From the NCBI GenBank assembly GCA_016215445.1, contig JACRJL010000001.1, positions 1 through 64,000 on the forward strand: DNA of 64,000 bases, read 5' to 3'. The position numbers were made by a program, and so were the translations under genes. This DNA comes from Candidatus Roizmanbacteria bacterium. Lineage in GTDB: Bacteria > Patescibacteriota > Microgenomatia > UBA1406 > GWC2-37-13. Positions 28,367 to 32,596 of the stretch are shown in pieces; position 1 is the first letter of the stretch; each line of letters starts with the position of its first letter. The notes below the pieces were generated by a model. That model did no database searches and had not been told where the DNA came from. It saw only the letters and a program-made list of their open reading frames with translations.

Positions 28367-28903
28367 ATGACAGCTATGGCGACGGAAACAAGAAAATTGA
28401 ATGTCTTTGAAAAAGCGGCTTATGTCTGGAATATGAGAGTAATAAAACCGACTAATAAAAATCATATTCCAAAAAACGGGGTCCGGGAACCAAGACACGA
28501 AGAAAGACTGAACTCCCTTGTTGAAATCTTGATACATACGCCTTCCAGAGATAATCTATATCAATTATTAAATTTTGGAGTCGATTTGGGCGATGAAAAG
28601 GCATTGATTGAAGCAGATAGATCAATTGGAACTTTTCCAAAGACCCATTTTTGGATGGAACACAACGATCCCCATAGAAGATTATTATATTTACAGACTC
28701 TATCCGAAGGTTATCTAAATAGCGCCGAATTCTATAAGCGAAGATACAATCATAATCTAGGATTGAAAGACGAAGCGAAAAACTTAAAAGATATTGATCC
28801 AAGAGGAAGCGCTGATAAAGCATTGGAACTATATAGAAAACATCAGGAGACAGAAACAGAAATTCTTCAACTTAAAGAACAATTTCCTGCTTTAATAAAA
28901 TAA
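28367..28903 (+). CDS. Small soluble helical protein of unknown function
   Basis: The protein has 178 residues and no signal peptide. I do not recognise the family. The middle has LVEILIHTPSRDNLYQLLNF and the C-terminal 60 residues are charged and helical (KHQETETEILQLKEQF). A second Met at 28376 is a possible start, but the ATG at 28367 fits the promoter better. The gene has a perfect-consensus promoter, so it is probably well expressed. It is followed by the first leader-ORF and terminator unit. Confidence 0.7.
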   Translation: MTAMATETRKLNVFEKAAYVWNMRVIKPTNKNHIPKNGVREPRHEERLNSLVEILIHTPSRDNLYQLLNFGVDLGDEKALIEADRSIGTFPKTHFWMEHNDPHRRLLYLQTLSEGYLNSAEFYKRRYNHNLGLKDEAKNLKDIDPRGSADKALELYRKHQETETEILQLKEQFPALIK

Positions 28904-28908
28904 TTCAA

Positions 28909-28936
28909 TTGCATTGTTAATTTTTCGGTGTATAAT
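28909..28936 (+). promoter_or_regulatory. Promoter of leader ORF 1
   Basis: TTGCAT (28909-28914), a 16-nt spacer and TATAAT (28931-28936). The leader ATG follows at 28949, 12 nt after the -10 box. Confidence 0.6.
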
Positions 28937-28948
28937 TATTATTATCTT

Positions 28949-29020
28949 ATGAAAAATTTGAATCCCAATTTTTACTTTTATTTTACCCGCGAAGGCGGCG
29001 GAGAAGGTTGTGACTGTTAA
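28949..29020 (+). CDS. 23-residue aromatic leader peptide 1
   Basis: ATG to TAA, 24 codons. The peptide contains NFYFYFTREGGGEG and ends CDC: five Phe/Tyr codons in a row (28968-28982) just before a Gly-rich part. The ORF sits between its own promoter and a Rho-independent terminator. This is the layout of amino-acid attenuation leaders such as pheL. The aromatic codons are also the left arm of a 16-bp perfect hairpin. Alternative: a small functional or modified peptide. It is too short for homology to be judged by eye. Confidence 0.5.
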   Translation: MKNLNPNFYFYFTREGGGEGCDC

Positions 29021-29036
29021 GTAAAATAAAAGTAAA
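28971..29036 (+). promoter_or_regulatory. Attenuator-like hairpin overlapping leader ORF 1
   Basis: The left arm TTTACTTTTATTTTAC (28971-28986) and right arm GTAAAATAAAAGTAAA (29021-29036) are perfect complements over 16 bp, with a 34-nt loop. The left arm consists of the Phe/Tyr codons of the leader. Inside the loop CGGCGG (28996-29001) can pair with CCGCCG (29043-29048) of the terminator, an alternative antiterminator. Confidence 0.6.
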
Positions 29037-29040
29037 CCAA

Positions 29041-29063
29041 CCCCGCCGAAAGGCGGGGTTTTT
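29041..29063 (+). terminator. Rho-independent terminator after leader ORF 1
   Basis: CCCCGCC (29041-29047), loop GAAA, GGCGGGG (29052-29058), then TTTTT. The stem is 7 GC-rich pairs with a GNRA-type loop. The same terminator occurs at 29465-29487. Confidence 0.9.
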
Positions 29064-29074
29064 AAGTTATATAT

Positions 29075-29356
29075 ATGGAAATTAGAACAGCAGTTGGAGC
29101 AAAAGCAGCAGAAAATTATCGAAAAATGAAGGACAAATTAACAGACCATCAAGTTCTTGTCCCGAAATTAAAATCAGTTCCGCACCACGGTGCTGGGGAA
29201 ATACCGGTGATAACTGGTTGGACTGTAAAAAATATTAGGAAGATGAACCTAAGCCAAATATCAATGGTTATGGAATATGCGTCGGCCCAGCTTGATGAAC
29301 CTAAAAGAGGGTTACTGACAGGTAGGGAAGAAAGGTTAAGAGGAATGAGAAATTAA
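29075..29356 (+). CDS. Small protein of unknown function behind the first attenuator
   Basis: The protein has 93 residues. It starts 12 nt after the terminator's T-run. I do not recognise the family. It is soluble, basic at the end (LTGREERLRGMRN), with an apparent helical C-terminal half (WTVKNIRKMNLSQISMVMEY). Its expression should depend on read-through of the terminator at 29041-29063 unless it has a hidden promoter. Eight nucleotides separate it from the second leader ORF. Confidence 0.6.
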   Translation: MEIRTAVGAKAAENYRKMKDKLTDHQVLVPKLKSVPHHGAGEIPVITGWTVKNIRKMNLSQISMVMEYASAQLDEPKRGLLTGREERLRGMRN

Positions 29357-29364
29357 AAAATAAC

Positions 29365-29448
29365 ATGAGAAACAAAAGATTTCTGATAAAACAGACGAGC
29401 TATTACTATCGAGAACTGCTTTACGGCGGGGTGCCGTTTCATGCCTGA
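29365..29448 (+). CDS. 27-residue tyrosine-rich leader peptide 2
   Basis: ATG to TGA, 28 codons. The peptide includes KQTSYYYRELLYGGVPFHA, with three consecutive Tyr codons (29401-29409) and a fourth at 29422-29424. It ends 16 nt before a terminator identical to the one after leader 1. A 9-nt segment inside the ORF is complementary to the terminator's 5' arm, so translation could control termination. Likely a regulatory leader of the 29511-31452 genes; an independent peptide function is possible. Confidence 0.5.
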   Translation: MRNKRFLIKQTSYYYRELLYGGVPFHA

Positions 29449-29472
29449 ATTTATACTTAACCGACCCCGCCG
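29424..29472 (+). promoter_or_regulatory. Antiterminator pairing of leader 2
   Basis: CGGCGGGGT (29424-29432, inside the leader ORF) is a perfect 9-nt complement of ACCCCGCCG (29464-29472, the 5' arm of the terminator). It can also form a local hairpin ACGGC/GCCGT. A ribosome stalled on the Tyr codons would leave this segment free; a ribosome at the stop codon would cover it. Confidence 0.6.
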
Positions 29473-29487
29473 AAAGGCGGGGTTTTT
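29465..29487 (+). terminator. Rho-independent terminator after leader ORF 2
   Basis: CCCCGCC (29465-29471), loop GAAA, GGCGGGG (29476-29482), then TTTTT. Identical in stem and loop to the terminator at 29041-29058. Confidence 0.9.
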
Positions 29488-29510: not shown

Positions 29511-30437
29511 ATGTCAGAAACTATAAAGATTACTGGTTTTAGTGATGGTCATCAATTTAGAAATGCGAATCGTTATATAGACACCCAAAAGCTTTTCCAG
29601 GAATTGGGTTTGACCAATGAGGTGGAAAATAGGACGCCAACCGTAGGGGTGAACGTTGCTCATTTGGCGAGAATGGATGCTGTCCAAGGGCTAAACAAAG
29701 ACATTAACGGACGTGATTTATCAGTAACAATTTTAGGCATATCGACGGCTGAAGGCCCGAGTGATTTTCAAAAATTATTGAAAGGATTGGGTGCAAGTCA
29801 TATCTCGACGACGGCGATAGATATAAGCGACGGAATTTTCTCCGAGATTGCGAAAACAGACTTGGATGAAGTAACCTGTCTTTTAAAAGACGCTAGAGAA
29901 ACGGGTTTACCGGGATCGAGTCAAGATTTCAATCTTCGCGATCATATCGCCAATTGTTGTCCTCCGGAGATTGATCGAGAAATTAACGCCGAGGCAGTAA
30001 AAATTCTCAAACCAGGAGGTATTTCCATTGTCAATATTACCAGTAGCGATCTATTATCTAATTCTCAAGGTAGGGAGGTAGTTGATTTTTTTCAACTAAG
30101 ATCAACTATAGGAGAAGAAATAATTCGTGCATTGCAGACTAATATATATGATCTAAAAGAATTAGCCGAAGCATTCCCAGAGGTTGATGTCGAATCGTTG
30201 CGAGGATTAATTTTGGAAATAGAACCCGGGGGGAGTTTTGTGGTTTTTGGAGAAGACGAACAGGGTCACGGCGAATGGTTCCGGTCCATAGATGACCATA
30301 AAAAACTCTGGAAAAAAGATAGGTTTGAAATTGTCGAAATTGCCACCCGAGAAGGTAAAGATAGTCACAGTCCGCCGCTTGAGTGTATGAGGCACAATGT
30401 TGTCCTCAAAAAAAAATTATCAGTTGATGAGAAATAA
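29511..30437 (+). CDS. SAM-dependent-methyltransferase-like protein
   Basis: The protein has 308 residues and is soluble. The middle resembles a class I methyltransferase: DLSVTILGISTAEGPSDF as a possible motif I region and INAEAVKILKPGGISIVNIT as the late strand motif. A Cys pair (NCCPP) lies between them. The glycine-rich motif I is not classical (ISTAEG), so the SAM site is uncertain. It starts 24 nt after the second terminator, and its stop is 1 nt before the PLP enzyme gene, so the two form an operon probably controlled by leader 2. Confidence 0.6.
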   Translation: MSETIKITGFSDGHQFRNANRYIDTQKLFQELGLTNEVENRTPTVGVNVAHLARMDAVQGLNKDINGRDLSVTILGISTAEGPSDFQKLLKGLGASHISTTAIDISDGIFSEIAKTDLDEVTCLLKDARETGLPGSSQDFNLRDHIANCCPPEIDREINAEAVKILKPGGISIVNITSSDLLSNSQGREVVDFFQLRSTIGEEIIRALQTNIYDLKELAEAFPEVDVESLRGLILEIEPGGSFVVFGEDEQGHGEWFRSIDDHKKLWKKDRFEIVEIATREGKDSHSPPLECMRHNVVLKKKLSVDEK

Positions 30438-30438
30438 T

Positions 30439-31452
30439 ATGAAAAAAAATAATCTAAAACCGATCAACGAGCCGATATTTCTATCAACCACTTCTGCCCA
30501 GAGTGAACCAAGTCAGTGGGGTTACAGCCGGGTCGATAATCCGACCCGGCTGGCGCTCGAAGGAAAGTTGGCAGAAATTGAAAAAGGCAAGTTTGCTTTG
30601 GCTTTTTCTTCAGGATCATCGGCAATAGCCTGTCTTTTTGCTCTTTTTAAAGGAGGCGATCATATTTTATGCCATCGGGAAATATATGAAGGGACTCATA
30701 GATTATTGGAAAAAATATTCAAAAGATTCAAAATAAAATTTGACTTAGTAGATTTTAATGACCCTGGAGAAGTTAAGAAAAGTATCAGGACCAATACAAA
30801 ACTAATCTTTTTCGAGAATATTACAAATCCGAATCTAGAAAAAATTAATATAAAGAAAATTAGGCGGTCTGTCCCAAAAAAAATTATTGTCGCTATTGAC
30901 AGTACCGTATGTACACCGGTTTTTGAAAACCCGTTAGAGTTGGGTGCCGATATTGTTGTTCACAGTCTGACAAAGTTTATTTCCGGCCACCATGATGTTC
31001 TTGCCGGGGCTGTCATGACGAATAAAATCGACCTATTTAATCAACTTAAGTTTATTCAACAAACCATGGGTTTAGTTTTAGATCCTTTCAGCTGCTATTT
31101 GATTAGTCGGGGTTTAAAAACTCTTGATTTGAGAATGGAAAAACATACGGCTAACGCCAAAAAAGTTGCTGAATTTCTGGAAAAGGAGCGGGAGGTTGAA
31201 AAAGTTATTTTTCCTGGAGTTTCCGGAGTTGTTTCTTTTCAATTGGATCGTAAAATTGATCCGATAGGTTTCTTAAAGAAGTTGAAGTTTATAAAAATCG
31301 CCCAGAGTTTTGGAGGAGCGGAATCGACCATTTTACATCCAGTTTCAATGATGAAGCTGGCCATTCCAGTTAATATTAACTTGTTCCGATTGTCAGTCGG
31401 TTTTGAAAATGTCGAAGATATTATCAATGATTTAACTCGAGCTTTAAAGTGA
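30439..31452 (+). CDS. PLP-dependent Cys/Met-metabolism enzyme (cystathionine gamma-synthase/lyase-like)
   Basis: The protein has 337 residues from the ATG at 30439, shorter than the usual 380-400. SRVDNPTRLALEGKLAEIE, LAFSSGSSAIACLFALFKGG and the PLP-lysine segment VVHSLTKFISGHHDVLAGAV are family hallmarks (Cys_Met_Meta_PP). The C-terminal substrate domain has SFGGAESTILHP. The exact reaction (lyase, synthase or sulfhydrylase) cannot be told. I chose 30439 because it follows the upstream stop by 1 nt; an earlier start at 30397 would overlap the upstream gene. Confidence 0.85.
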   Translation: MKKNNLKPINEPIFLSTTSAQSEPSQWGYSRVDNPTRLALEGKLAEIEKGKFALAFSSGSSAIACLFALFKGGDHILCHREIYEGTHRLLEKIFKRFKIKFDLVDFNDPGEVKKSIRTNTKLIFFENITNPNLEKINIKKIRRSVPKKIIVAIDSTVCTPVFENPLELGADIVVHSLTKFISGHHDVLAGAVMTNKIDLFNQLKFIQQTMGLVLDPFSCYLISRGLKTLDLRMEKHTANAKKVAEFLEKEREVEKVIFPGVSGVVSFQLDRKIDPIGFLKKLKFIKIAQSFGGAESTILHPVSMMKLAIPVNINLFRLSVGFENVEDIINDLTRALK

Positions 31453-31464
31453 ATTATAAATTTG

Positions 31465-31470
31465 TATAAT
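31465..31470 (+). promoter_or_regulatory. -10 box of tyrS
   Basis: TATAAT with 7 nt to the tyrS ATG; the -35 region is weak. tyrS therefore probably has its own leaderless transcript as well as possible read-through from upstream. Confidence 0.5.
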
Positions 31471-31477
31471 AAATCTT

Positions 31478-32596
31478 ATGAATATCGAAGATCGTTTGAA
31501 ACTTATAAAACAGGTTGGTGAGGAAATTATTCAAGAGGATGAGTTGAGGAAGTTGTTGGAAAGTGGTGAGGAATTGATTGCCTATGACGGATTTGAGCCG
31601 TCGGGGCAGATTCACATTGCCCAAGGAATATTGCGCGCCATTAACGTCAATAAGATGATTAAAGCGGGAGTAAAGTTTCGGATGTGGGTAGCTGATTGGC
31701 ATGCTATGGCTAACAATAAAATGGGAGGAGATTTGGAAAAAATAAAAATCGTCGGTAAATATTTTATTGAAGTTTGGCGGGCAAGTGGTATGGACCTATC
31801 AAAAGTTGAGTTTATGTGGGCGAGTGATATGGCAAAAAACCCAGACTATTGGAAGTTAGTTCTTCAGGTTGGAAAGTCCAATGCCTTAAAAAGATTCATC
31901 AGGACCGCCGAGATGATGGGTCGGGAAGAATCGCTTGATAAGTTGACTGGCGCTCATATTATTTATTCTTGTATGCAGGTGGCTGACATCTTTATGCTTA
32001 AGGCTAATATTACTCAGCTTGGAATGGATCAAAGAAAGGTTAACATGTTGGCCCGCGAAGTCGGTCCAATTCTTGGATTTTGGAAGCCGGTGGTAGTTTC
32101 CCACCACATGCTTATGGGTCTTTCTAAGGCCCCGGGTACAACTGAAGCGGTTGTACAGGGCTCGTCAGAAAGTGCTATTCAGCGAACAATTGAGAGAAAA
32201 ATGAGTAAGTCGATGCCTGATTCGGCGATTTTTATGACCGACACAAAAGAAGATATAAAAAGGAAAATAAATAAGGCTTATTGTTTAGAGGGGGATATTA
32301 AAGAAAATCCGATACTTGAATATTATAAATATATAATATTTGAATCCCTCGACAAGCTTGGGATAAACGAGTTGCGGGTTGAGAGACCGGAAAAATTCGG
32401 AGGCGATTTATCATTCAAAACATACGCCGAATTGGAAAAAATCTTTTCCGAAAAAAAGGTCCATCCGATGGATATAAAAGCCACTTTGTCCAAATTACTT
32501 GACCAGTTGATTGAGCCGGTCCGACGCCATTTCGAACAAGATCCTGAAGCCAAAAAACTCTTGGAGCAAGTGCGAAGCTTTCAGGTGACAAGATAG
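31478..32596 (+). CDS. tyrS: Tyrosyl-tRNA synthetase, archaeal/eukaryotic type
   Basis: The protein has 372 residues. FEPSGQIHIAQGI carries the class I HIGH-like motif and KMSKSMPDSAIFM the KMSKS motif. MWVADWHAMANNKMGGDLEKI and LGMDQRKVNMLAREVG match the archaeal/eukaryotic TyrRS branch rather than the usual bacterial one, and the bacterial C-terminal S4 domain is absent. It charges tRNA-Tyr. It lies about 2 kb behind the Tyr-rich leader ORF, which is suggestive but not proof of joint control. Confidence 0.92.
   Translation: MNIEDRLKLIKQVGEEIIQEDELRKLLESGEELIAYDGFEPSGQIHIAQGILRAINVNKMIKAGVKFRMWVADWHAMANNKMGGDLEKIKIVGKYFIEVWRASGMDLSKVEFMWASDMAKNPDYWKLVLQVGKSNALKRFIRTAEMMGREESLDKLTGAHIIYSCMQVADIFMLKANITQLGMDQRKVNMLAREVGPILGFWKPVVVSHHMLMGLSKAPGTTEAVVQGSSESAIQRTIERKMSKSMPDSAIFMTDTKEDIKRKINKAYCLEGDIKENPILEYYKYIIFESLDKLGINELRVERPEKFGGDLSFKTYAELEKIFSEKKVHPMDIKATLSKLLDQLIEPVRRHFEQDPEAKKLLEQVRSFQVTR

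Follow-up and report, generated by a model that had tools for sequence, protein, structure and literature searches.

Leader-peptide systems had been shown until 2010 only in Proteobacteria and Actinobacteria, according to a survey of that year, which added Firmicutes (PMC2965389). The proteobacterial Phe leader (pheA/pheST; Rfam RF01859) has an outer hairpin with Phe-rich codons as its 5′ arm, and the 3′ arm of this hairpin lies before the terminator. A review of Corynebacterium glutamicum aroR describes a Phe-Tyr-Phe leader peptide before a DAHP-synthase operon that is induced by Phe limitation (PMC11802643), and a survey of Actinobacteria saw no conserved elements for Phe/Tyr (PMC1262725). 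Two leader ORFs can share one mRNA, as in Salmonella mgtCBR, where ATP and proline signals act additively (PMC3641672). A study of Flavobacterium psychrophilum reports strong clues that leader-peptide attenuators precede amino-acid operons (PMC9723704). For Patescibacteria, the Candidate Phyla Radiation, Microgenomates and Roizmanbacteria, no described case of leader-peptide attenuation was found among the open-licence papers listed, in agreement with the preliminary description of this locus, which had known of none in the lineage; the word attenuation is absent from a Patescibacteria perspective (PMC11665869). Patescibacteria have small genomes and their gene regulation is little studied, and the source bacterium of the DNA analyzed here is uncultivated.

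The DNA is a 64-kb stretch (64,000 nucleotides; the window) of contig 2 of a Candidatus Roizmanbacteria bacterium, whose genome comprises 940 kb in 3 contigs. The locus consists of the following features:

28909-28936, + strand: probable promoter from comparison with relatives, TTGCAT (28909-28914), 16 nt, TATAAT (28931-28936)
28949-29020, + strand: leader ORF 1, MKNLNPNFYFYFTREGGGEGCDC, 23 aa, from translation; FYFYF leaders also occur in relatives
28970-28984, + strand: putative regulatory codons Phe-Tyr-Phe-Tyr-Phe, from the sequence and the relatives' leaders
28971-28986, + strand: 5′ arm of a perfect 16-bp codon hairpin
28996-29010, + strand: proposed antiterminator, 5′ strand (28996-29001 and 29006-29010), which codes the Gly tail
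29021-29036, + strand: 3′ arm of the codon hairpin, from the first base past the stop codon
29038-29048, + strand: proposed antiterminator, 3′ strand, common with the terminator 5′ arm
29039-29063, + strand: intrinsic terminator 1 with its T-run; stem 29039-29060, 9 pairs, loop GAAA
29075-29356, + strand: 93-aa ORF of unassigned function; one homologue, 42-48% identical, at the same place in genome G004
29365-29448, + strand: leader ORF 2, MRNKRFLIKQTSYYYRELLYGGVPFHA, Tyr-rich, 8 nt past the 93-aa ORF
29463-29484, + strand: intrinsic terminator 2
29511-30437, + strand: 308-aa protein without a Pfam, NCBIfam or PDB match
30397-31452, + strand: Cys/Met-metabolism PLP enzyme; start more likely 30439 from homologue comparison
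31478-32596, + strand: tyrosine--tRNA ligase (TyrRS; NF006330, above cut-off), end of the proposed regulated operon

The preliminary description had proposed a 23-residue ORF with consecutive Phe/Tyr codons, a perfect 16-bp inverted repeat with these codons as its left arm, a Rho-independent terminator and a short antiterminator candidate. The first three are borne out by the translation of 28949-29020, by the repeat at 28971-28986/29021-29036, and by the 9-pair stem and T-run of terminator 1; the last takes shape as an 11-pair interaction of the Gly tail with the terminator 5′ arm that is kept in relatives. The left arm of the codon hairpin takes in the final two bases of the first Phe codon and extends as far as the second base of the Thr codon. 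It belongs to the one perfect inverted repeat of at least 16 bp (loop 3-60) in the window, and none was present in 20 first-order Markov sequences of the window's length and dinucleotide make-up.

A 17-base N-F-Y-F-Y-F pattern was matched in 10 of the 20 genus genomes, and leaders with terminators were present in 8 of these 10. A broad scan over the contigs of 84,980 species, which asked for FYFYF codons and, behind them, a CCCGC..GCGGG hairpin, returned 91 stretches, of which 57 were leader-like by fixed criteria (23 in Microgenomates, 30 in Bacteroidota and 4 in others) and 34 were set aside as not leader-like. Since both scans demanded FYFYF, and the broad one also the hairpin, conservation of these parts in the matches is partly selection; the company of Phe/Tyr genes is not. 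Reading of 24 distinct Microgenomates loci, some of them found by routes other than the broad scan, revealed a recurring element made of aromatic codons, a Gly-rich tail and a terminator. It precedes shikimate-pathway operons in 18 loci and TyrRS operons in four (the window, G003, G004 and G008); one leader (L104) stands before a PEP-mutase-like gene and an aminotransferase-like ORF, and one (L052) runs into the contig end. The first gene matches DAHP_synth_1 in 13/24 loci, 11 of them over the curated cut-off, and that of L161 is DAHP-synthase-like without a Pfam match. The first gene is a transaldolase in L149 and a PfkB-like kinase in L157 (by Pfam) and L175 (by likeness), ahead of a DAHP synthase. 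Leader sequences could be used in this way to predict gene function, the transaldolase and PfkB-like genes being placed with the aromatic pathway. In L086 a DeoC-family aldolase comes first and further shikimate-like genes follow; in this locus (L086, 1165-2964) tandem FYFYF leaders stand before the aldolase and a 335-aa ORF, which may be an archaeal-type route to dehydroquinate. The G005 leader heads an operon that includes DAHP synthase, chorismate synthase (AroC) and TyrRS, together with genes that by likeness we take to be AroB, AroA, AroK, AroE, chorismate mutase, an aminotransferase and TyrA. The tRNA-Tyr gene of G008 starts 21 bases past the last base of the terminator, and is followed by an aminotransferase and TyrRS. 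Outside Microgenomates, FYFYF leaders with terminators precede prephenate dehydratase in 10/10 tested loci among the 30 leader-like stretches of Bacteroidota (L080, L081, L084, L088, L091, L093, L095, L123, L148 and L153).

The codon hairpin, perfect in the window, is weak in many relatives. Among 28 leaders, the window's included, 12 had a hairpin as strong in at most 10 of 300 shuffles. Aromatic codons did pair better with their own post-stop stretch than with foreign ones (-5.3 and -3.9, respectively; 0/20,000 permutations, 28 leaders), and the excess was found in the home genus (0/20,000) as well as in the others (18/20,000). The hairpin was rejected as the conserved core of the switch because it is strong in under half of the leaders, though own partners beat swapped ones. 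It is not the antiterminator, but an outer hairpin of the kind present in the Rfam Phe leader.

The Gly tail and the terminator 5′ arm are the better conserved switch. In the window, 28996-29001 pair with 29043-29048 and 29006-29010 with 29038-29042, so that the 3′ strand is made of the terminator 5′ arm and the bases immediately 5′ of the terminator. The tail of each of 28 leaders was folded with its own arm and with the arm of every other leader; for this set, a chance ORF on the other strand (L119) that is in the hairpin set was removed by hand, and the G006 leader (L052) was added. Own duplexes gave -16.1 kcal/mol and swapped ones -13.4 kcal/mol, with 0/20,000 permutations as good. The excess persisted (0/20,000) in a comparison restricted to each leader's own 8 bases outside the terminator, joined to a constant arm, and it was observed in the 14 home-genus leaders (5/20,000) and in the 14 others (0/20,000). 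Control segments slid upstream by 4, 8 and 12 nt gave a weaker excess (1,877, 726 and 83 of 20,000, respectively), and its presence even at 12 nt indicates that relatedness or composition accounts for some of the signal. RNAalifold predicted no pair on the 23-sequence MAFFT leader alignment, which omits L104, L175 and, apart from the G005 one (L056), the second leaders of tandem pairs; the terminator stems align out of register there, and the per-sequence swapped-partner duplexes were used instead. The spacing is also conserved, with the antiterminator starting 10-14 nt past the last aromatic codon in 26/28 leaders, and 16 and 7 nt past it in the other two. A ribosome positioned with its A site on the last aromatic codon covers about this distance. 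The spacing is kept even in some second leaders whose stop codon lies upstream of the tail, hence RNA geometry, and not peptide sequence, seems to be conserved. Relatives keep the aromatic codons, the antiterminator and the terminator before Phe/Tyr genes; the preliminary description had named the loss of both codons and pairing as fatal to its reading, which at the level of sequence has therefore survived that test.

Competition between the two structures was also followed by masking the RNA under the ribosome, up to 9 nt beyond the A-site codon (a chosen value), and folding the remainder as far as the terminator loop. With the A site on FYFYF, and the terminator 3′ arm not yet made, the antiterminator of the window had a probability of 0.86-0.87. 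It fell to 0.42-0.44 once the A site had moved to the Glu codon and first Gly codon of the tail, and to ≤0.04 from the second Gly codon onward. At full-length equilibrium with the ribosome on FYFYF, the terminator of the window was favoured (0.87-0.97), so antitermination here would have to depend on kinetics. In several relatives (e.g., L003, the first leader of L046, L061, L077 and L161), equilibrium favours the antiterminator or gives a tie on all or most aromatic codons.

The preliminary description had given leader 1 its own promoter. TTGCAT and TATAAT, the latter ending 12 nt upstream of the ATG, are supported by the relatives, but the TTGTTA-17-TATTAT that a simple promoter scan picks out is no commoner than chance (3 such sites found, 3.1 expected). 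A TATAAT-like box was observed in 21/28 leaders; it ends 6-14 nt upstream of the ATG and is itself preceded, at a distance of 16-17 nt, by a -35-like box. The remaining seven comprise five second leaders of tandem pairs, which have SD-like stretches or nothing clear at that place, plus L119 and L175, which are not known as second leaders. A box before first leaders and none before second ones points to a single near-leaderless transcript through both, and the 5′ UTR of leader 1 would be only a few nt long.

The gene at 29075, proposed earlier as the target, stays within the putative unit, but the unit does not end there: it continues through leader 2 and terminator 2 (29365-29484) and on through 29511-32596. 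No counterpart of the 93-aa ORF was seen in G003, where the leader still heads the same operon. The 308-aa protein is 67-71% identical in G003 and G004, and all three genomes carry it in the TyrRS operon. Leader 2 is a member of a highly conserved family of Tyr leaders, RQTSYYYYxLLYGG/RR, present in six genomes (G000, the window's, and G003, G004, G006, G017 and G026). The G006 member stands before a beta-eliminating lyase gene (PF01212), with tRNA-Tyr and TyrRS further downstream; leader 2 starts within ~20 nt of terminator 1 in G006 (L057) and G026 (L026). In the window, terminators 1 and 2 (29039-29060 and 29463-29484) show 97% identity over 29 bases, as though one were a copy of the other.

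Other explanations of the locus have to be weighed against this body of evidence. In Firmicutes the T-box often controls TyrRS genes, and a T-box or metabolite riboswitch could read tyrosine or tRNA-Tyr directly; a default Rfam scan of the window, however, returned tRNA only, with no T-box or riboswitch over threshold, and the sole weak aptamer match in the region consists of 17 terminator bases, so that the probability of such an element is close to nil. An ordinary terminator of the upstream gene (28367-28903) might simply lie next to a chance short ORF, as a terminator 140 nt past a gene end is unremarkable and short ORFs are common. Against it, the combination of FYFYF leader and terminator is found again before Phe/Tyr genes in other genomes, and a promoter-like box lies immediately upstream of the ATG, which renders the coincidence highly improbable. 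It is also very unlikely that the nascent peptide itself stalls the ribosome, irrespective of codon starvation: Gly-Gly and Cys are often present in the tail and the N-terminus MKNL is common to several relatives, but there is wide variation in the residues on either side of the aromatic run, RNA pairing accounts for the tail, and a stop codon precedes it in some second leaders. The plain-terminator, T-box and arrest-peptide readings were rejected on the evidence against each. Finally, the product might act in trans, as a small RNA ending at terminator 1 or as a functional small peptide. A precedent exists in the Sinorhizobium meliloti leader peptide peTrpL, for which a role in trans is reported (PMC7298713); here the cis position before Phe/Tyr genes is kept in 22/24 loci read, and we judge action in trans to be extremely improbable.

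We are highly confident that the element is a ribosome-mediated transcription attenuator that senses charged tRNA-Phe and tRNA-Tyr. The preliminary description was right in kind, as recurrence before Phe/Tyr genes, tail/arm pairing and spacing all indicate. Three features by which an attenuator is recognized are present: the leader codons match the downstream genes, with FYFYF before DAHP synthase or TyrRS; an intrinsic terminator lies between the leader and the first gene; and a mutually exclusive antiterminator is indicated by the conserved pairing and spacing and by folding under the ribosome mask. In the proposed mechanism, a transcript starting a few nt before the ATG would be translated at once. 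When charged tRNA-Phe or tRNA-Tyr is short, the ribosome would stall on FYFYF and open the 16-bp codon hairpin. The Gly-rich tail, which begins at the ribosome's front edge, could then pair with the terminator 5′ arm, so that the terminator would fail to form and RNA polymerase would read on. When both charged tRNAs are plentiful, the ribosome would reach the stop codon and cover the tail, so that the terminator could form. If the leader is left untranslated, the codon hairpin would enclose the tail, and termination would again be favoured. Read-through would lead into the 93-aa gene, then to the second, Tyr-rich leader and its terminator, and then into the operon ending in TyrRS. The switch very probably turns on the tyrosine-tRNA charging operon when Phe or Tyr is short.

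The reach of the element was estimated with R1, a sequence model of 23 leaders without base pairs. At a best E ≤1e-9, R1 matched 34/83 genomes of the order and 13/20 in the genus, where the other 7/20 had no match at this threshold; among 379 genomes drawn from the phylum it matched three, two of them in the home family. At the reach of R1, the element is thus a family or order trait, and not a phylum trait. At E 0.01, weak matches appeared in 80/83 order genomes; as many of these may be no more than terminators, they were kept out of the counts. Twenty stretches with weaker R1 matches, read by eye and without a controlled count, contained leaders rich in Ile/Leu/Val, in Phe alone, in Trp or in His. 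Ile/Leu/Val-rich leaders of the same design, often in tandem, were noted in L215, L216, L217, L220, L221, L223 and L228; that of L221 stands before an aminotransferase class IV gene, which is followed by an acetolactate-synthase-like ORF. A Trp-rich leader, NWQNWNPCSW, precedes a PLP-enzyme gene resembling TrpB (L214, G004:C36), and a leader with SFHH precedes an aromatic amino acid lyase (L219, G035:C50). The window's own genome carries further leader-plus-terminator candidates at C3:65322-65421 and C3:335481-335559 (L231 and L232; MSLNKPFFLLINLIAA; MKINNIYSRIIFLFTAYRRR). At C2:162497-162558 (L235), a short ORF, MIINLFEK, and a terminator stand directly before an aspartate/ornithine carbamoyltransferase gene, a layout that we take to be reminiscent of pyrB attenuation.

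Many relatives carry a Phe/Tyr leader before a DAHP-synthase operon, and the window's genome has no match to DAHP_synth_1. It also lacks a match to chorismate synthase, which is present in 7/20 genus members. With neither marker matched, gene content predicts no Phe or Tyr synthesis by the usual route, and the switch appears to have outlived the pathway. Tentatively, and as a proposal that we consider slightly more apt to fail than to stand, Roizmanbacteria and their kin may possess a lineage-wide attenuator regulon for many amino acids, with attenuators often placed two in series on a near-leaderless transcript. In the window, such series logic would express the 93-aa gene upon shortage of Phe or Tyr, and the TyrRS operon only upon shortage of Tyr; the switch would have been kept after the loss of shikimate genes as a sensor of outside amino-acid supply, perhaps from a host or neighbours. 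If this is true, a biosynthesis switch has turned into a sensor of external amino-acid supply. An amino-acid sensing switch that is traceable in many genomes and apparently kept past the loss of its pathway offers a handle on what these cells sense, and extends leader-peptide attenuation to another deep branch.

Among known systems, the best match is Rfam Phe_leader (RF01859), at 36.7 bits and E 7e-5, with model positions 1-125 (full length) aligned on 28957-29066. The gathering cut-off of 55 bits is not reached, either in the window or in relatives (best 41.3). In the loci of 20 relatives (60.7 kb), 11 Phe_leader matches at E ≤0.5 were obtained in 10 loci, all of them on leaders. The locus shares with the proteobacterial leader the aromatic codons in the 5′ arm of the outer hairpin and the 3′ arm before the terminator. 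In contrast to it, Tyr codons here alternate with Phe, the score is under the cut-off, the phylum is different, DAHP synthase or TyrRS operons are headed, and the start would be near-leaderless. With the aroR-aroF attenuator of C. glutamicum, likened by description only, many relatives share a Phe/Tyr leader before a DAHP-synthase operon, whereas here the leaders are often in tandem and the copy in the window would serve TyrRS, its genome having no DAHP synthase match. Salmonella mgtCBR likewise has two leader ORFs per mRNA, but here two amino-acid leaders stand in series, each with its own terminator. The F. psychrophilum attenuators are likewise inferred outside Proteobacteria, Actinobacteria and Firmicutes, but in Bacteroidota. 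We conclude that: i) the mechanism is a known one, as in the Phe leader of Proteobacteria and aroR of C. glutamicum, in an element that by cut-off falls outside the Rfam family, and ii) the novelty lies in the lineage, in the tandem and apparently near-leaderless layout, and in the retention of the switch for TyrRS in a genome where two marker genes give no sign of the shikimate pathway.
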